Shown in pieces: positions 461 to 8,906 of a stretch of DNA of 8,906 nucleotides. Every line of letters starts with the position of its first letter. Position 1 is the first letter of the stretch. Location: contig CALVRQ010000069.1 of assembly GCA_944358685.1 (NCBI GenBank), forward strand, positions 1 to 8,906, given 5' to 3'. The notes below the pieces were generated by a model. It searched no databases and was not told the origin of the DNA. It worked only from the letters and a program-made list of their open reading frames with translations. The position numbers and the translations under genes were made by a program. The DNA is from an uncultured Bacilli bacterium (GTDB lineage Bacteria > Bacillota_I > Bacilli_A > RF39 > UBA660).

Positions 461-550
461 ATTAAACATTTGATATATTATTAAATTGTCAATACTCATA
501 ACATCTAAACAAAATAATTTTAAAAAACACTGTGGAAAATAATTTAAATG

Positions 551-586
551 AAAACTCTCAAGCACAAAATAGTATTGAGAGTTTTT
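551..586 (+). terminator. Rho-independent terminator after the RhuM gene
   Basis: A perfect 11-bp inverted repeat is visible: AAAACTCTCAA (551-561) pairs with TTGAGAGTTTT (575-585) around a 13-base loop, and the 3' arm runs into TTTTT (582-586). This is the layout of an intrinsic terminator. The A-run on the 5' side would give a T-run on the opposite strand, so it could work in both directions. It lies 91 bases after the RhuM stop and just upstream of the jetA promoter, insulating the two units. The stem has only four G-C pairs, so it is moderately stable. Confidence 0.8.
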
Positions 587-597
587 ATAAAAAAATC

Positions 598-626
598 TTT
601 TCTTTTTCCAAGTAAAATGTTACAAT
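598..626 (+). promoter_or_regulatory. Predicted promoter of the jetABCD operon (extended -10)
   Basis: TACAAT at 621-626 matches the sigma-70/sigma-A -10 consensus in five of six positions. It is preceded by TG at 618-619, giving the extended -10 form TGTTACAAT. The -35 position at 17-bp spacing (598-603, TTTTCT) is weak, which is common when an extended -10 is present. Transcription would start near 633, leaving a leader of only about 19 bases before the TTG at 652. There is therefore no room for a riboswitch or attenuator. No clear operator repeat is visible beside it. Confidence 0.55.
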
Positions 627-636
627 ATGTGCGAAG

Positions 637-645
637 AAGGACGTG
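637..645 (+). promoter_or_regulatory. Ribosome binding site that sets the jetA start at TTG 652
   Basis: AAGGACGTG matches the full anti-Shine-Dalgarno complement AAGGAGGTG in eight of nine positions. The GTG codons at 643 and 646 lie in or directly against this site and are too close to be used. TTG at 652 has a 6-base spacer and is the best start. Confidence 0.65.
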
Positions 646-651
646 GTGCGT

Positions 652-2118
652 TTGAAGCTTTCTAATAAATTAATAAAACCAATCACTGAAGCCGCATACT
701 TAAATACAGAAAATACAAATAGATATAGACCAATCATGCGCTTTTTTTACCACAAATATGAGCAAGCCGAAAACTGGTTATATAAAGAAGATGTATATAA
801 TGAACTAAAAGACCAAATCGAAGGATATACAATTGAAGATTGCCAAAGAGATTTGGATTTTCTTGTGGAAAAAATGTCCCTAACCACTGTTCAAGATACT
901 GAAAATGCATCAACCTTAGAAAAATTCAAATTCAAAAACTATCGTTACCAAATGACTGACTATGCCATTGAAATTGAAAGAATGACTATCAGACTAGAAG
1001 AAATGGAAGTCAAAGTTGCTTCTCTAGAACCAAGACTATTTGAAAGAATAAAATTAAGACTAGAAAAATTATTAGAAATAAAAAACCTTTCAGAGCAAGA
1101 ATTGTATGAACTATGGACAGATTTAATGCAAGATTTTACTAATTTAAACCAAAGCTATCAAGACTTCTTAAAAAAATTCAACGAACCAAAAACTGAAGAG
1201 TTAATGCAAAGCCATCTTTTTATCCAACACAAAAACTCTCTTGTTCACTATCTTCAAGATTTTATCAAAGAATATATCGCATCTGGTAGTGAAATAGCTA
1301 AAATATTAAAACAAATAACAAAAGAAGATACCAATTATTTCATGGATAGTTTAATATCTCATCAAAAGAAAACTCCAAAAATAAGACCCGACTTTGACTA
1401 TGACTACTTAAGAGTTGTTAATTCAGGTAAATGGAATAGTTTAAGAAAATGGTTCATAGCTGAACAAGGCATTAGCGAAGGTGATAGACTTTTAAACGCC
1501 ACTAACAACATAATATCTAAAATAACCAAATATGCCTCTAACTTAATTGAATTACATGGTAACATGATAAATAGAAAAGAAGAATATAAATACCTATGTC
1601 ACTTATTTGATAATATAACAAACCTAAACGACGCTCATACTTTAGCCGGAACAATATTAGGTGTAGGGACAGTTAGACATTTTAAAGGAACATCCCTTTT
1701 AAATAGTGATTCCATCATCCCATCATTAAATGTAAAACCAACAATTATCAAAGTAGATCCTATGAAAAAGACACTAAGAGCAGAGATAAATCGCACTCAA
1801 ATTATAGATAAAACAAAAGAAAAAGAAGCCATATTAATGCAAGCTGAAGCTGAAGAAAAAAGAAAAAAAGAAATTCTCTACTCTTTAGTCCATAAAGGAC
1901 ATATAAACCTAACCGGAAATATCAATTTAACTCAAGAAGAAAGATCATACATTTTATCATTACTAGCTAAATCTCGTAATGATGTCACTAAAGACCCAAT
2001 ATTCGGACTAAATTATAAAATCACTGAAGCACCCGGAAAATGCCAAATAAACTCGGAAGATGGTACATTTTATATGGATGCCATCAGTATTGAGATAGGT
2101 GGTGAAAGCCTTGGATAA
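652..2118 (+). CDS. jetA: Wadjet protein JetA (TIGR02677/DUF2397 family), kleisin-like subunit
   Basis: The protein is 488 residues when started at TTG 652 (491 from GTG 643, 490 from GTG 646). The TTG start is chosen because the GTGs overlap the Shine-Dalgarno. The N-terminal part (about residues 15-110) reads like the winged-helix region of TIGR02677: NRYRPIMRFFY (23-33), WLYKEDV (42-48), DLDFLVE (67-73), the QDT motif (81-83), TLEKFK (88-93) and YRYQMTDYAIEIER (97-110). It is followed by SLEPRLFERI (124-133) and a mostly helical middle. The C-terminal part contains AGTILGVGTVRHFKG, a charged helix rich in Glu/Lys, and a final small domain resembling a winged helix. In Wadjet complexes JetA plays the kleisin (MukF-like) role, bridging the heads of the JetC dimer and holding JetB; this is family knowledge, not visible directly. 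It is first in the operon behind a single promoter, and its last 8 bases overlap jetB. No frameshift or truncation is seen. Assignment to type III rather than type I or II rests on these motifs. Confidence 0.88.
   Translation: MKLSNKLIKPITEAAYLNTENTNRYRPIMRFFYHKYEQAENWLYKEDVYNELKDQIEGYTIEDCQRDLDFLVEKMSLTTVQDTENASTLEKFKFKNYRYQMTDYAIEIERMTIRLEEMEVKVASLEPRLFERIKLRLEKLLEIKNLSEQELYELWTDLMQDFTNLNQSYQDFLKKFNEPKTEELMQSHLFIQHKNSLVHYLQDFIKEYIASGSEIAKILKQITKEDTNYFMDSLISHQKKTPKIRPDFDYDYLRVVNSGKWNSLRKWFIAEQGISEGDRLLNATNNIISKITKYASNLIELHGNMINRKEEYKYLCHLFDNITNLNDAHTLAGTILGVGTVRHFKGTSLLNSDSIIPSLNVKPTIIKVDPMKKTLRAEINRTQIIDKTKEKEAILMQAEAEEKRKKEILYSLVHKGHINLTGNINLTQEERSYILSLLAKSRNDVTKDPIFGLNYKITEAPGKCQINSEDGTFYMDAISIEIGGESLG
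2097..2105 (+). promoter_or_regulatory. Ribosome binding site inside jetA that sets the jetB start at TTG 2111
   Basis: AGGTGGTGA matches AGGAGGTGA in eight of nine positions, and TTG 2111 follows after a 5-base spacer. The in-frame GTGs at 2099 and 2102 lie inside the site itself and so are poor start candidates. The site lies within the last codons of jetA, so ribosomes finishing jetA would pass over it, which favours translational coupling. Confidence 0.65.
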
Positions 2119-3304
2119 TTTAAATAAAGAAATGAATCTTCTTTTAAATAACTTTTGGATAACTAAAGATGAAGACCCCGAAAATTATTATTTATTAAAA
2201 AGAAGACAAAAAGAATTACAGGAATTTATTTTTAAAAACCTAGGTAGTAAATTAATCATTCACGAACGGTTTATCAAACTAGAAAAAATATCAAGTACCC
2301 CTTCTAAAGACCAAGGAATAGAAACATTCACCTCACCCATGGATTATGTCTTCTTATTTATTTTCTTGCTATATCTAGAAGATAAACCTCGCGGTGAAAA
2401 ATTTATCCTTTCACAATTAATCGATTATGTAAAAAACACTGCTATCACATTAGAACTTTCAAACACCCCAGATTGGACCTATGCCTCTCACCGAAAAAGT
2501 TTAATTAGAGTCATCAAATATTTAGTAAGTTTAAACGTAATCATCGTAAAAGACGAAGATAAAATTAGTTTCCAAGATGACCAAAATGCCGATGCCTTAT
2601 ATGAGGTAACCGGTATTTCCAACTACTTAACACCATCATTTGATCATGGAATATTTGGCCTTAAAACCCCCAAAGACTTTCTAAACATCCAGTGGGAAGG
2701 ACAAGACACTGGTAGTAGCAACATCAGAAGATATAACATATATAGAAATCTTCTTTACCTTCCCGCAACCTACCGCGATAACATATCCGAAGGTGAATAC
2801 GATTATTTAAAGAAACTACATAAAACAATCGAAAATGAAATATCTGAAAAACTAGACTTTTCAGTAGAAATAACTAAAAACATGGCCTTAATATATACTG
2901 ATGAATCACTAGTTCAAAAAGATTATTTTCCAAACACCAAAAGAATTACCGATATTATTCTTCTTATCAACAAGGAAATTACCGACTATATAAAAAATCA
3001 AAATATTGAAATGCAAGAAGACGAAACATATATCTTAACTAAAGCAGAATTAAAAACTGTCATACTAGATACCAAAACAAAATATAAACCATATTACAGT
3101 AAAGCTTACTTAGATTTAACTGAAAAAAGATACTTAAATGAAATTATTACCAACATGGAAAACTACCACTTCATTAAAGAAAATCAAGATGAAACCTATA
3201 AAATATATCCTTTGATATACCGTTTTATAGGAAATCCAGTTAAAATTAAAGAAAACAAAAATGAACAAATAGAAATATTTGGAGGTGAAGAAGATGAATT
3301 ATAA
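2111..3304 (+). CDS. jetB: Wadjet protein JetB (TIGR02678/DUF2398 family), MukE/KITE-like subunit
   Basis: Starting at TTG 2111 the product is 397 residues. Features that recall TIGR02678 are the N-terminal LLNNFWI (11-17), DEDPENYYLLK (20-30), LGSKLIIHERFIKLEKI (44-60) and FTSPMDYVFLFIFLLYLEDK (73-92). These are followed by FILSQLIDYV, DWTYASHRKSLIRVIKYL, a DALYEVTGISNYL block and a variable C-terminal half with winged-helix-like helices. The hydrophobic run near residues 79-89 is a conserved buried helix of the family rather than a membrane segment: it is short and ends in LEDK. In Wadjet complexes JetB corresponds to the MukE-like subunit that dimerises, binds the JetA kleisin and touches DNA (established for related complexes, inferred here). 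The gene overlaps jetA by 8 bases and jetC by 11. Nothing is missing or frameshifted. Length and gene order fit the family. Confidence 0.87.
   Translation: MDNLNKEMNLLLNNFWITKDEDPENYYLLKRRQKELQEFIFKNLGSKLIIHERFIKLEKISSTPSKDQGIETFTSPMDYVFLFIFLLYLEDKPRGEKFILSQLIDYVKNTAITLELSNTPDWTYASHRKSLIRVIKYLVSLNVIIVKDEDKISFQDDQNADALYEVTGISNYLTPSFDHGIFGLKTPKDFLNIQWEGQDTGSSNIRRYNIYRNLLYLPATYRDNISEGEYDYLKKLHKTIENEISEKLDFSVEITKNMALIYTDESLVQKDYFPNTKRITDIILLINKEITDYIKNQNIEMQEDETYILTKAELKTVILDTKTKYKPYYSKAYLDLTEKRYLNEIITNMENYHFIKENQDETYKIYPLIYRFIGNPVKIKENKNEQIEIFGGEEDEL
3281..3288 (+). promoter_or_regulatory. Strong ribosome binding site of jetC, inside the end of jetB
   Basis: GGAGGTGA is a perfect match to the Shine-Dalgarno consensus and lies 5 bases before ATG 3294. 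A TTG at 3279 in the same frame overlaps the site and is not a credible start. This is the best ribosome binding site in the operon. Confidence 0.8.
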
Positions 3305-6300
3305 AGTAACCAGAATAGGCCTTATTAATTTTTGGCTCTACGATGAAGAAACATTTGACTTTGAAGATGGTAAACTTTTATTAAGAGGAACCAATGGTAG
3401 TGGTAAATCTGTAACCATGCAATCATTTATTCCCTTAATATTAGATGGTAATAAAAACCCATCTAGATTAGACCCCTTCGGTAGCAAAGACAAAAAAATT
3501 GAAGATTACTTATTAGGAAGTGCCGATAGCGAACAAAAAGATGAAGCAACAGGCTATCTATTCATGGAAATGTATAGTGAAGAAAAACTAAAATATCAAA
3601 CACTGGGTATTGGTCTTCATGCTAAAAAAGGAAGACCTACTGACTTTTGGGGTTTTATCATCAAAAATGGGCAGCGCATCGGTAGAGATATCCTACTTTA
3701 TCATAGTAAAGAAGAAAAAATACCATGCAGCAAAAAAGAATTAAGAGCTAGACTTGGTACGGAAAATATCTTTACTGAAACCGCCAAAGAATACAAAGAA
3801 GCTGTTAATAAAACCATTTTTGGCTTTCCAAATCTTGATATGTATGATGAATTCATTAATTTGCTATTGCAACTTAGAAGTCCAAAACTATCTAAAGAAT
3901 ATAAACCGACAAAATTAATGGAAATCTTAAGTGGTGTCCTTCAACCTCTAACCGAAGAGGATTTAAGACCCCTATCTGAAGCCATTGAAGACATGGATAA
4001 AACCAAAGAAAAAACTTTAAAATTGCAGTCAGATGTAAAAAAAATATCAAATCTTATAATACCATATAATAATTATAATGAAACCATGCTTTATAAAAAA
4101 GCTGAAAATTATTTAAATAGTTTAAATGTCGAAACTGCTCACGAAAAAGAAATTCATCAATTAGAGGAAGATATTGAAAATCTTCAAAACTCACTCCAAG
4201 AAAATAAAAAGACATCGTTAGATTTAGAAATTAGAAAAGAAAATATCGAAACTCAAAGAGCTAATTTAGATAGCCGTGATTTAGAAAGCAAAATCAAAAG
4301 AAAAGAAAGTTTAGAAAGCGAAATAAAAGAAGAACAAAATAAAAAAGAAAAAGCTCAAAATAGCTACAATAATCATATAACCAAAAGGCAAGATTTAGAA
4401 ATTGATTTAGACAAATTAATTAAAGATAAAGATAAAAAAGAATTAGAGTGTCAAAGTACTTTTCAGGATATTGCTAATTTATGTACCAACATAAAATTTG
4501 AAGAGGGTAAAATTATTCTTAAGGATTATGCAAAAGATAGAAATATTCTCAAACAGTTTGAACCGCTAAAAAATAGACTAAAAAATTATCAACTCAAACT
4601 AGAAAACATTAAAAAAGAATTAGAAAAAAACAAAAGACTCGAAGAAAAACGCAATGAAATTGAACAAGAATTAAACACTAAAAATAAAGAATATAACAAA
4701 GTATCTGATAATATAAAAAATAATGAAGAAAAACTAGGCGAAGAAATATTAAACATCAAAGATAAAGTTGCCTATCTTGGTAAGACAAATGAAATTATCA
4801 AATTAAAAATAGATGAAATTAGTGATATAACCTCACCCTATAATCCATATTCTAAAACATCATATGATGCATCTAAACAAAAATATTTAAAAATCTCTTC
4901 TAAAATAAAAGATAATCTGTTAAAAGAGTTATACACAATAAAAAATAAAATAGCTCTTCAAAGGCAAAAAGTTGAAGATATAAATAAAGAACTTAATAAT
5001 CTCAAATTATCTAAAGAATTAGAAATAATAAGAGATGAAGAAGAAAATAAAACCATTGAATATCTAAATGACAAAAACATTCCTTATGCCGAATTTTATA
5101 AAGCCATTGAATTTAAAGATAATATAGATCAAAACACCAAAGATAAACTAGAATCAACTTTATTATCATCTGGTATTTTAAATGCCATTATTGTAAATGA
5201 CTTTAACCAAATAAAAAATATCAAAGGTAATTTTATTACCTATAGTAAACCTGCCTCTAATAATTTAACTAAATATTTTAAACCAGTTAAAACAAATAAT
5301 CTAACTGAAGATATAATAATCAATGTTTTAAAATCAGTCAGTATCGATGATACTGAAGAAATTGCTTTAACCAAAGATTATTTCAAAAATAGCTTCATGC
5401 GTATTCAAGGTTCGCAAAATTTTAAAAGCATATATATTGGAATATTATCTAGAATAAAAGCCAAAGAAGAAAAAATCAGCCAAATAGAAAAAGAGTTAGA
5501 AAAAGAGGAATCTATATTAACTAATTTAGAAAATATTAAACTCACAAAAGAAAATGACTTAACCACCTTATCACATGAAGAAAATAATTATCCATCAAAT
5601 GAAGTACTAAATCAAATCGAAAGTGAAATTGATAAATTAACTGTTCATTTAGAAATCATTAGTAAAGACAAAAACCAAGCGGAAGAAAAGCTTCAAACAA
5701 TTACCGAAGAAATTGAAACATTATTTAAAAAGTTAGTCGAAATGAAAAAAGAAATTAATTTTCCACTATATCTAGAAACTATTGAAGAAGTACTTCAAAA
5801 TACCCAAAGCCTTTCTTCAGAGCTTGCAACCTTTGAAATTTCCTTAAATAATTACTATGGGTGTCAAGAAAATGTTTTAGTAAAAAAAGAACAAATTGAA
5901 TATGAAAATAATACAATCGATGAAATAAACGAAAATATAAGTTCCATAAACATTTCTTTAAAGAAAAAAGAATATGAAAAAAATGATTTAGATAAAATTT
6001 TAAATTCAAATGAATATAAAAATTTATCAGAAACCATTCTTAAACTAGATAGTGAGTTAAAACAAATCGATGATAGAAGAATAAATCTCACTCAAAAATA
6101 TGGTCAAGATGAAGAATCTTTAAAAAATAAACAAGCCACTCTCGAAGAAAAAAAGCAAAATCAAAAAGTAAAACATGAAATTGCTAATCTAAATGAAATG
6201 TTCTTTAAAGAAGAATATAACCTCCATTATATTGAAAAAGAACCAATTGAAAATGTTAAACTTGCTGCGAAAAATGTTTTGGAAAAATTATCTAATAGGA

Positions 6301-7367
6301 AAAATAGTGATATAGACAAAGTTAAATATAATTATGATGATGCTTATAATAATTACCGAAATGAGTTAAGTGATTATCACCTAACTAGTAATATTATATT
6401 TGATAGAGAAATAGAGCCAAACGACATTATTGATAATGAAACCTTAAAAGATTTACACTCAAAAAATAAAAGAGTAGACCTATCGGCAATGTATCAAGGT
6501 AGAGTTTTAAACATCTATTCTCTATCTAAAACCATTGAAAATGCTATTGAAGAAAACAATCAAATCATTAGTGAACAAGACCGTCATTTATTTGAAGAAA
6601 TACTGTTAAAATCAGTAGGAGCCAAAATACGAGAAAGAATAGAATCTAGTAAAAATTGGGTCAAAGAAATAAATCAAATAATGAAACAAATGCAAGAAGG
6701 TAGTAGCCTATCATTTGGGTTAGAATGGAAAAGTAAAAGTGCTGAATCAATGGACGAAATCGAAACCAAAGAACTCGTTAGAATTTTTCAAATTGACCCT
6801 AATATGGTCACTAAATCCGATAGTGATAAATTAATTAATCACTTTAGATCAAAACTAAAAAGAGAAACCGAGATGAACGGTGAAAGTGAAACATATTCAT
6901 CAGTAATATTTGATGTCCTAGATTATCGTAACTGGTTTGAATTTAAAATGACATACCAAAGAAAAGGAGAAAATAAAAAAGAATTAACTAATAAAGTATT
7001 CTCCGTGTTTAGTGGTGGTGAAAAGGCCAAAACCATGTATATTCCATTATTTGCCGCAGTATATGCTAAACTTATGAGTGCTAAAAAAGATGCTCCAAGA
7101 TTAATCGCCTTAGATGAAGCCTTTGCGGGTGTTGATGATGCTAATATTCGTGAAATGTTTGGAATATTATCTTCGCTTAACCTAGATTATATCTTAACAT
7201 CACAAGCCTTATGGGGAGACTATGACACTATTAGTAACCTAGCCATTGCTGAACTATTAAGACCAAATAACGCCCAAGCAGTTTGCGTAAAAAGATATCG
7301 TTGGAATGGTAAAGTCAAAGAAATAGTTTTAAAAAAGGAGTTAAATGATGCTATACCTTTATTTTAA
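3294..7367 (+). CDS. jetC: Wadjet protein JetC (TIGR02680 family), SMC-like ATPase
   Basis: JetC is the motor of Wadjet: an SMC/MukB-like ATPase whose dimer binds ATP between two heads and is thought to extrude DNA loops. The product is 1357 residues from ATG 3294, in the usual size range of the family. The Walker A motif GTNGSGKS is at residues 32-39 (bases 3387-3410), and a Q-loop-like LLLQLRSPKLSK is at 190-201. Long Glu/Lys/Asn-rich coiled-coil segments (about 265-590 and 720-1030) flank a less charged, non-coiled central region beginning IPYAEFYKAIEF (from residue 596) and ending near 720, which is in the hinge position. The C-terminal head carries the ABC signature FSGGEKAKT (SGGE at 1240-1243), Walker B LIALDEAF (D1274, E1275) and the D-loop GVDD (1279-1282). 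Thr-Ser-Gln follows where many ABC ATPases have the H-loop histidine. All ATPase motifs needed for activity are present. It overlaps jetB by 11 bases and jetD by 20. Confidence 0.93.
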   Translation: MNYKVTRIGLINFWLYDEETFDFEDGKLLLRGTNGSGKSVTMQSFIPLILDGNKNPSRLDPFGSKDKKIEDYLLGSADSEQKDEATGYLFMEMYSEEKLKYQTLGIGLHAKKGRPTDFWGFIIKNGQRIGRDILLYHSKEEKIPCSKKELRARLGTENIFTETAKEYKEAVNKTIFGFPNLDMYDEFINLLLQLRSPKLSKEYKPTKLMEILSGVLQPLTEEDLRPLSEAIEDMDKTKEKTLKLQSDVKKISNLIIPYNNYNETMLYKKAENYLNSLNVETAHEKEIHQLEEDIENLQNSLQENKKTSLDLEIRKENIETQRANLDSRDLESKIKRKESLESEIKEEQNKKEKAQNSYNNHITKRQDLEIDLDKLIKDKDKKELECQSTFQDIANLCTNIKFEEGKIILKDYAKDRNILKQFEPLKNRLKNYQLKLENIKKELEKNKRLEEKRNEIEQELNTKNKEYNKVSDNIKNNEEKLGEEILNIKDKVAYLGKTNEIIKLKIDEISDITSPYNPYSKTSYDASKQKYLKISSKIKDNLLKELYTIKNKIALQRQKVEDINKELNNLKLSKELEIIRDEEENKTIEYLNDKNIPYAEFYKAIEFKDNIDQNTKDKLESTLLSSGILNAIIVNDFNQIKNIKGNFITYSKPASNNLTKYFKPVKTNNLTEDIIINVLKSVSIDDTEEIALTKDYFKNSFMRIQGSQNFKSIYIGILSRIKAKEEKISQIEKELEKEESILTNLENIKLTKENDLTTLSHEENNYPSNEVLNQIESEIDKLTVHLEIISKDKNQAEEKLQTITEEIETLFKKLVEMKKEINFPLYLETIEEVLQNTQSLSSELATFEISLNNYYGCQENVLVKKEQIEYENNTIDEINENISSINISLKKKEYEKNDLDKILNSNEYKNLSETILKLDSELKQIDDRRINLTQKYGQDEESLKNKQATLEEKKQNQKVKHEIANLNEMFFKEEYNLHYIEKEPIENVKLAAKNVLEKLSNRKNSDIDKVKYNYDDAYNNYRNELSDYHLTSNIIFDREIEPNDIIDNETLKDLHSKNKRVDLSAMYQGRVLNIYSLSKTIENAIEENNQIISEQDRHLFEEILLKSVGAKIRERIESSKNWVKEINQIMKQMQEGSSLSFGLEWKSKSAESMDEIETKELVRIFQIDPNMVTKSDSDKLINHFRSKLKRETEMNGESETYSSVIFDVLDYRNWFEFKMTYQRKGENKKELTNKVFSVFSGGEKAKTMYIPLFAAVYAKLMSAKKDAPRLIALDEAFAGVDDANIREMFGILSSLNLDYILTSQALWGDYDTISNLAIAELLRPNNAQAVCVKRYRWNGKVKEIVLKKELNDAIPLF
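7335..7340 (+). promoter_or_regulatory. Ribosome binding site of jetD, inside the end of jetC
   Basis: AAGGAG is followed by tandem ATG codons at 7345 (4-base spacer) and 7348 (7-base spacer). The 7-base spacing is closer to optimal, so 7348 is preferred. The difference is one methionine. The site lies within the last eleven codons of jetC, as at the other junctions. Confidence 0.7.
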
Positions 7368-8577
7368 AGAAAGAAGAGGTTTTGATAGATTATTTACCCT
7401 ATTAAAACAAAAGTATATTTCTCTAAATCGTTTTTCTGGAACGGTAACCTTAAAAAACATCACTGAAATTGAAAGTAAAGATTTGAGTAACTTCTTTGGA
7501 ATGACCATTGAACAAGGCAGTACATTTAAAACATCTTTTGCTAAAATAGAAAAGAAATTAAAAGAAACAAAATACTCTGGTTTTACTTGGGATGAACTCT
7601 TTAAAAACTATTTTGAAAAACAAATTGTCACAAAAAAAGAAAAAAGTGAAATGTTTAAAAAAGAAGAAACCTTATTCTATCAAAGAATTTTAAAACAAAC
7701 TCCAGAAGAACTTAAAAGTTGGTTTGAAACTATTATTCAAAGCAAAAATGAAATTTCTCAAATCTTCTTACGAAAATATAAAAAAAATAAGCAAAGTTTT
7801 GAAACTGAGCTTTTAAACTTATTAAAAATCATTTCAAAAACAAAAGAAAACAATCCCACCTCTTTAACTATTCTAGCATCCACCTCATCGAATCCCCATT
7901 TTTTAGATTTAGGAACACCCACTAGTAATCTATTTTTTAAATTAACTGCGAACTATTATCAAAAAAAGGAACCTAAAACAACTATTGAAAAAATAAAATT
8001 CTTATCCGATTTAAACATCTATATAGATACATTATCTAATTTCGTAATAATTTATAATTTTAAAAGTGATAGTGAGTTAATTAATACTTTTACTAAAGAA
8101 AAACAACCATTAAATCTAAATCTAAATAATATTTTAACAATCGGTAAAATAGATACCGATTTAAAAAAAGTATTAGTATTTGAAAATCCATCGATGCTTC
8201 CAGTTTTTGCCAAATATAATATTCCGATTATAATAAGTTATGGAAACCCTAATTTTGCCTTTTATAAAGTAATCGAAAAATTAATCGAAACAAAAAATCA
8301 AATATATTATAATGGTGACTTTGATCCAGAAGGTTTAGTTATTGCTGCAAATATTTGTGAAAAATTTCCGCAAATAAAATTATTTTGTTATCAAAAAGAA
8401 GATTATTTTAATTCAAAGTCTAAAAATTTGGTTTCTGAAAGTAGACTAAAAAAATTAGATAACATAAAATTACCAGAATTAAAGCAAATAAAAGAACTTT
8501 TGAAGAAAGAAAAATTATCAGCTTACCAAGAAAAAAACATCCAAAATATTGAAAATTATATAAAAAAGATAATTTAA
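7348..8577 (+). CDS. jetD: Wadjet protein JetD (TIGR02679-like), TOPRIM-fold nuclease subunit
   Basis: The product is 409 residues (410 from ATG 7345). JetD is the effector: in characterised Wadjet systems it is related to the topoisomerase VI A/Spo11 subunit and cuts DNA once the JetABC motor has reeled in a small circle. Here the N-terminal two thirds (about 1-230) resemble the DUF3323-type region, with FKERRGFDRLF and FSGTVTLKNITE followed by Lys-rich helices. The C-terminal third (about 265-400) resembles DUF2399/TOPRIM: KKVLVFENPS with E279, then YYNGDFDPEGLVIAANI with D324 and D326. These Glu and Asp-x-Asp residues are the expected metal-binding acids, so the nuclease looks intact. The N-terminal part is more diverged than the TOPRIM part, which makes type III assignment from JetD alone less certain than from the other three genes. 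It is the last jet gene, overlaps jetC by 20 bases, and ends in TAA with no terminator before the next gene. Confidence 0.87.
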   Translation: MLYLYFKERRGFDRLFTLLKQKYISLNRFSGTVTLKNITEIESKDLSNFFGMTIEQGSTFKTSFAKIEKKLKETKYSGFTWDELFKNYFEKQIVTKKEKSEMFKKEETLFYQRILKQTPEELKSWFETIIQSKNEISQIFLRKYKKNKQSFETELLNLLKIISKTKENNPTSLTILASTSSNPHFLDLGTPTSNLFFKLTANYYQKKEPKTTIEKIKFLSDLNIYIDTLSNFVIIYNFKSDSELINTFTKEKQPLNLNLNNILTIGKIDTDLKKVLVFENPSMLPVFAKYNIPIIISYGNPNFAFYKVIEKLIETKNQIYYNGDFDPEGLVIAANICEKFPQIKLFCYQKEDYFNSKSKNLVSESRLKKLDNIKLPELKQIKELLKKEKLSAYQEKNIQNIENYIKKII

Positions 8578-8592: not shown

Positions 8593-8906
8593 ATGGAATA
8601 TCGTGATTTATATAACAAAGATAGAAACTTAACAGGCAAAACTATTGCTAAAGGAGAGCCTATTCCTAAAGGCTATTACATTAAAATTGTTGTTTGCTTC
8701 ATGGAAAATAGTGAAGGAAAATTTCTAATGCAAAAAAGATCGTTACAAAAAGATGGACTATGGGCCACAACTGGAGGACATCCAAAATCAGGTGAGGATT
8801 CACTAACCGGCATGCATACTGAAATATTAGAAGAATTAGATTTAGACATTAATCCAAATGAATTGAAATTAGTTGTTACAAATCAAGATGATAAACATAT
8901 CTGTGA
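8593..8906 (+). CDS. NUDIX hydrolase, N-terminal part (3' end cut by window)
   Basis: The frame is open from ATG 8593 to the window end, showing 104 residues of a protein that in this subfamily is usually about 160-200 residues. NUDIX enzymes hydrolyse nucleoside diphosphates linked to another group, using metal ions held by the Nudix box. The N-terminus (DLYNKDRNLTGKTIAKGEPI, residues 5-24) and KGYYIKIVVCF (26-36) are typical of the cd04693-like subgroup that resembles isopentenyl-diphosphate isomerase. The Nudix box spans about 62-84: G62, E68, then TEILEEL with E77, E80 and E81. The metal-binding glutamates are kept, but the usual Arg before E77 is Thr76 and the usual Gly is Asp83, so the box is degenerate. 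The substrate is unknown. It lies 15 bases after jetD and may share its transcript. Such genes are common housekeeping neighbours, so a defence role is not implied. Confidence 0.82.
   Translation, partial: MEYRDLYNKDRNLTGKTIAKGEPIPKGYYIKIVVCFMENSEGKFLMQKRSLQKDGLWATTGGHPKSGEDSLTGMHTEILEELDLDINPNELKLVVTNQDDKHIC

Follow-up and report, generated by a model that had tools for sequence, protein, structure and literature searches.

We analyzed an 8,906-nucleotide stretch of DNA from an uncultured Bacilli bacterium (contig CALVRQ010000069.1; the whole stretch is hereafter the window) and conclude with high confidence that it carries a complete Wadjet operon of type II from a low-GC host, most probably a Bacilli member with a small genome. 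In this operon JetA, JetB and JetC would form a loop-extruding motor that acts with the nuclease JetD against small plasmids. The window has a G+C content of 27.6%, and reading its open reading frames (ORFs) reveals four jet ORFs in succession on the + strand in the order A-B-C-D, free of internal stops and with neighboring ORFs overlapping by 8, 11 and 23 bases (starts 2111, 3294 and 7345). JetA, a DUF2397 kleisin-like subunit, spans 643..2118 and has 491 amino acids from GTG 643, with alternative in-frame starts at GTG 646 and TTG 652. JetB, a DUF2398 KITE-like subunit, spans 2111..3304 (397 amino acids from TTG 2111); an upstream alternative start at GTG 2099 gives an ORF of 2099-3304 encoding 401 amino acids, the version used in the PADLOC, Pfam and NCBIfam profile searches. 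The SMC-like ATPase JetC spans 3294..7367 (1357 amino acids from ATG 3294, within an open frame of 3279-7367), and JetD, a nuclease with a C-terminal Toprim domain, spans 7345..8577 (410 amino acids from ATG 7345). An original prediction made from the letters of this DNA had described four consecutive + strand genes with uninterrupted frames, which this reading bears out; the start it gave for the system, position 598, is separated by an in-frame TAA at 613-615 from GTG 643, the earliest start codon, which lies 45 bases further downstream.

Profile and sequence searches identify each protein as a type II Jet component. The top PADLOC model was a type 2 Jet model for all four proteins, with scores of 449.7 bits for JetA (PDLC00540, JetA2), 357.7 bits for JetB (PDLC00542, JetB2), 1207.6 bits for JetC (PDLC00551, JetC2) and 339 bits for JetD (PDLC00556, JetD2), and at these scores the matches are not due to chance. 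JetA and JetB also match the Pfam families PF09660 (343 bits, cut-off 28.5) and PF09661 (260.4 bits, cut-off 26.9), and three of the four NCBIfam models proposed earlier as a check exceed their cut-offs: TIGR02677 for JetA (216 bits, cut-off 165.85), TIGR02678 for JetB (154.4 bits, cut-off 124.65) and TIGR02680 for JetC (709.2 bits, cut-off 462.85). Searches of PDB sequences matched JetA, JetB and JetC to chains E (E 5.5e-49), D (E 1.1e-46) and A (E 4.5e-180) of entry 9qe0, titled as a Neobacillus vireti Wadjet-II JetABC dimer. This complex from N. vireti LMG 21834 (nvJET; PDB 9qe0 and 9qe1) is the only solved complex matched by the three proteins in the PDB sequence search, and is diverged from them in sequence; the same search found no N. 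vireti JetD chain for sequence comparison. The type 2 PADLOC models, the NCBIfam scores and the matches to 9qe0 therefore place the operon in Wadjet type II, a call that follows the names of the PADLOC models and the title of the PDB entry rather than the original type definitions of 2018. The PADLOC, Pfam and PDB sequence matches, the conserved operon order and the predicted folds together uphold the earlier proposal of a complete, apparently intact JetABCD system.

The original prediction had named type III as the best fit, an assignment we now consider exceedingly improbable. In its broad layout, JetC is no guide to which of the two types is present, since PMC12647877 describes Wadjet-III, like Wadjet-II, as having no hinge channel and tending to longer coiled coils. 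The type 3 models of the PADLOC library include a JetD3 model that weakly matches the JetD of one relative (locus L017) at 26.2 bits, compared to 326.5 bits for JetD2. For the window itself, no type 3 model matched any of the four Jet proteins at E 0.001, the only matches to other types were weak type 1 matches (up to 18.3 bits for JetB and up to 107 bits for JetC), and the nearest solved complex for JetA, JetB and JetC is a Wadjet-II. On this evidence we correct the type from III to II.

The ATPase motifs of this type II JetC are intact and lie where they had been predicted. Walker A (GTNGSGKS, 3387..3410) is read directly in the sequence and is followed by the ABC signature FSGGE (7008..7022, with SGGE at 7011-7022) and Walker B (RLIALDEAFAG, 7098..7130, with LIALDEA at 7101-7121), all on the + strand, the last containing the catalytic glutamate E1275 counted from ATG 3294. 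FSGGE and ALDEAFAGVD are invariant in 12 of 12 aligned full-length JetC proteins, the window's included. The JetC hinge and adjoining coiled coil (residues 555-750; 4956..5543, + strand) include a hinge with a predicted fold of the N. vireti kind that is 21% identical to the N. vireti JetC hinge in a structural alignment. Given this match, the window hinge probably lacks a central channel and hence would not allow obstacles to pass through it.

Relatives of the operon occur patchily. A named-genome scan with JetD returned two matches, both metagenome-assembled genomes of uncultured Bacilli bacteria, and relatives were compared in 193 genomes from the order of one of the two (G002, itself included). 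JetD matches occur in 13 of these genomes, near full length in 11 and weak and partial in two (G025 and G098). Fourteen loci were compared (L001, L002 and L017-L028; shorter stretches of these regions make up L003-L016), and in 11 of them JetA, JetB, JetC and JetD follow one another on the same strand. Locus L023, at a contig edge, holds JetD and part of JetC, and the weak matches of G025 and G098 (L027 and L028) were rejected as Wadjet, with no other jet gene in the surrounding stretches. The nearest relative, L017 (G137:C18, from the order of G002), has the same four genes in the same order and strand arrangement as the window, with 73, 67, 60 and 65% identity for JetA-D, but differs in its neighbors: the RhuM and NUDIX gene pieces of the window, described below, are both unmatched in L017. 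A further 11 database proteins are 98-99% identical to the window JetD. This distribution bears on whether the genes could instead encode a housekeeping condensin of the MukBEF or MksBEF kind without a role in defense, which is scarcely credible: rather than a three-gene operon without JetD, the window has an operon that also encodes the nuclease JetD, whose Toprim acids are invariant and whose gene overlaps the 3′ end of jetC; the genes are patchy, with near full-length JetD in only those 11 of the 193 genomes; and JetC has a single PDB sequence match at E 0.001, to the closest solved complex, a Wadjet-II.

JetD retains the acidic residues of a Toprim nuclease. The glutamate motif FENPS (E280; 8179..8193, + strand) and the DxD motif NGDFDPEG (D325, D327 and E329; 8311..8334, + strand) contain four acidic residues that are each invariant in 62 of 62 sequences. 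The Glu and Asp-x-Asp acids are thus intact as originally predicted, whereas the numbering D324/D326 given at that time is one too low; the residues are D325 and D327 from ATG 7345, and the lower numbers are those expected if translation began at the second ATG (7348). Structural comparison of the JetD model matched Toprim-containing structures to residues 272-410. The type I JetD of P. aeruginosa (7til) and a nuclease from C. glutamicum (8b7f) fit the model with root-mean-square deviations of 13.1 Å over 270 residues and 7.9 Å over 265 residues, neither with a PDB sequence match, and these large deviations imply that the domains are arranged differently or that the JetD model is off. Unlike DNA topoisomerase VI subunit A and Spo11, the window JetD is encoded by the final gene of an SMC operon, and PMC10586767 describes JetD as having no catalytic tyrosine.

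In the model described by PMC10586767 and PMC12287153, JetABC extrudes loops on a small circle until its two motors run into each other, upon which JetD cleaves the DNA. In such a mechanism, the kleisin JetA, the KITE protein JetB and the SMC-like ATPase JetC would form a DNA loop-extruding motor, two motors would reel in the whole small circle and collide, and the Toprim nuclease JetD would then cut the DNA, leading to loss of small plasmids; on the strength of studies of related systems, we infer that the products of the window operon would assemble into such a complex, extrude loops, cleave DNA and restrict plasmids. Several results weigh against the type II Wadjet assignment or its functional reading, most of them on JetD. 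JetD scores 113.9 bits against TIGR02679, the fourth of the NCBIfam models, with residues 29-400 aligned and below the cut-off of 196, and is therefore not named a member of that family. The JetD model has a predicted TM-score (pTM) of 0.60; nine Foldseek matches at E<=0.001 have low query-normalized TM-scores of 0.24-0.40; structural matches hardly extend into the first ~95 residues; and the PDB sequence search gave no convincing match, the best being to designed proteins at E 0.96. In comparison with L017, the ratios of nonsynonymous to synonymous substitution rates (dN/dS) are ~0.09, 0.11, 0.18 and 0.17 for JetA-D, and are rough because dS, at 1.6-2.2, is near saturation.

These points are relevant to the possibility that the operon is a type II Wadjet by descent that is inactive, silenced or retargeted in its host, which we regard as very unlikely. 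In its favor are the JetD score below the TIGR02679 cut-off and the number of matches to a sigma-70 consensus promoter near the JetA start, which does not exceed chance (one found, 2.5 expected). Against it, the catalytic motifs named above are intact and all four jet genes look constrained, with signs of purifying selection; scanning for consensus promoters is moreover a weak test. Conserved motifs and constrained-looking genes suggest that the type II Wadjet operon is active. As a separate matter of annotation, TIGR02679 used alone would leave JetD unnamed, though PADLOC recognizes it.

Some relatives carry additional genes 3′ of jetD. A family of ~600-660 amino acid proteins, with 17 members by protein search, adjoins the JetD 3′ end on the same strand in L022, L025 and L026 with gaps of 4, -4 and 12 bases, and its copies in tandem number three in G078 (L022:14362-18298), two in G151 (L025:12499-16334) and one in G192 (L026:7925-9745). 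The only Pfam match above cut-off is a SEC-C motif at the C terminus of L022:14362, L025:14361 and L031:1627; PADLOC matches arise through the SEC-C motif only, plus one weak match for L025:14361, and PADLOC gave no match for L025:12499 or L026:7925. The family occurs in 7 of the 193 genomes; three of these belong to the 11 in which JetD is near full length and four (G150 included) to the remaining 182, an association with a Fisher p of 0.0043 in a test that ignores genome kinship and was chosen after the pattern had been seen. No jet genes occur in the stretches around the copies of G048, G095 and G138, and the family is not in the window. It is conceivable, if doubtful, that the type II Wadjet of Bacilli relatives acquired a lineage-specific accessory module of these tandem genes, maybe co-expressed with JetD and acting for example as regulators or target adaptors, with the window representing the plain four-gene form of the clade. 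In G150, locus L031 has three copies of the family (L031:1627-7414), preceded by a region at the contig start (L031:1-1535) whose first 25 residues are the same as residues 371-395 (of 410) in the L025 JetD, after which the frame differs. A weakly ISL3-transposase-like ORF (20.3 bits, cut-off 23) follows this JetD-identical stretch, an arrangement that resembles the insertion of a mobile element near the end of jetD in that genome.

The window operon is flanked by two genes. Directly upstream, a RhuM-family gene is represented by its C-terminal part (2-460; PF13310, 166 bits; PADLOC candidate model PDC-S05), its start lying outside the window. Between it and JetA is a terminator-like hairpin (548..588, + strand; -16.5 kcal/mol, z -5.68) with runs of A and T on its two sides; no shuffled version out of 200 reached an equally good fold, and the hairpin is possibly the terminator of the RhuM-family gene. 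A consensus terminator scan, which covers loops of 3-8 only, listed none. Downstream, a NUDIX-domain gene (8593-8906, cut by the window end; PF00293, 33 bits) begins with an ATG 15 bases after the JetD stop and is preceded by a ribosome-binding-site-like AAAGGAG. We considered this gene as a fifth Wadjet gene and found no support for it as a conserved partner: its N-terminal piece (104 amino acids), like the RhuM piece (152 amino acids), is unmatched in the 14 loci (tblastn, E 1e-4), a set in which the sequence of L018 stops ~0.3 kb past JetD, that of L026 starts 78 bases ahead of JetA, and two loci lack jet genes. No RNA family reached its gathering score in the window. As to a phage or plasmid origin of the locus, a tblastn search with JetC found no match in a phage collection, and a scan of viral contigs, which reaches close relatives only, confirmed no relative; among plasmids, 21 records match, with at least 80% of the query matched in only one, a 1.08 Mb Priestia megaterium record at 30.9% identity. 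In several relatives, N-acetylmuramoyl-L-alanine amidase-like ORFs, some with LysM-like repeats, were recognized by eye near Wadjet (L001:1942-3171, L001:11286-12326, L019:5911-6219, L020:14922-15242 and L024:13930-14220).

The window operon is an intact-looking, ordinary copy of a known defense system, in the described type II branch, in agreement with the original view that the system class is known and that the interest lies in an intact copy from an AT-rich lineage. Our literature search found no paper naming at least two of Wadjet, DUF2397, DUF2398, TIGR02680, DUF3375 and DUF2399, and a 2023 review (PMC10586767) states that most Wadjet work has been on type I. Few members of the class have been studied, and the operon extends it by a type II Wadjet that looks intact and comes from an AT-rich lineage; hosts with this jetABCD operon likely resist small plasmids.
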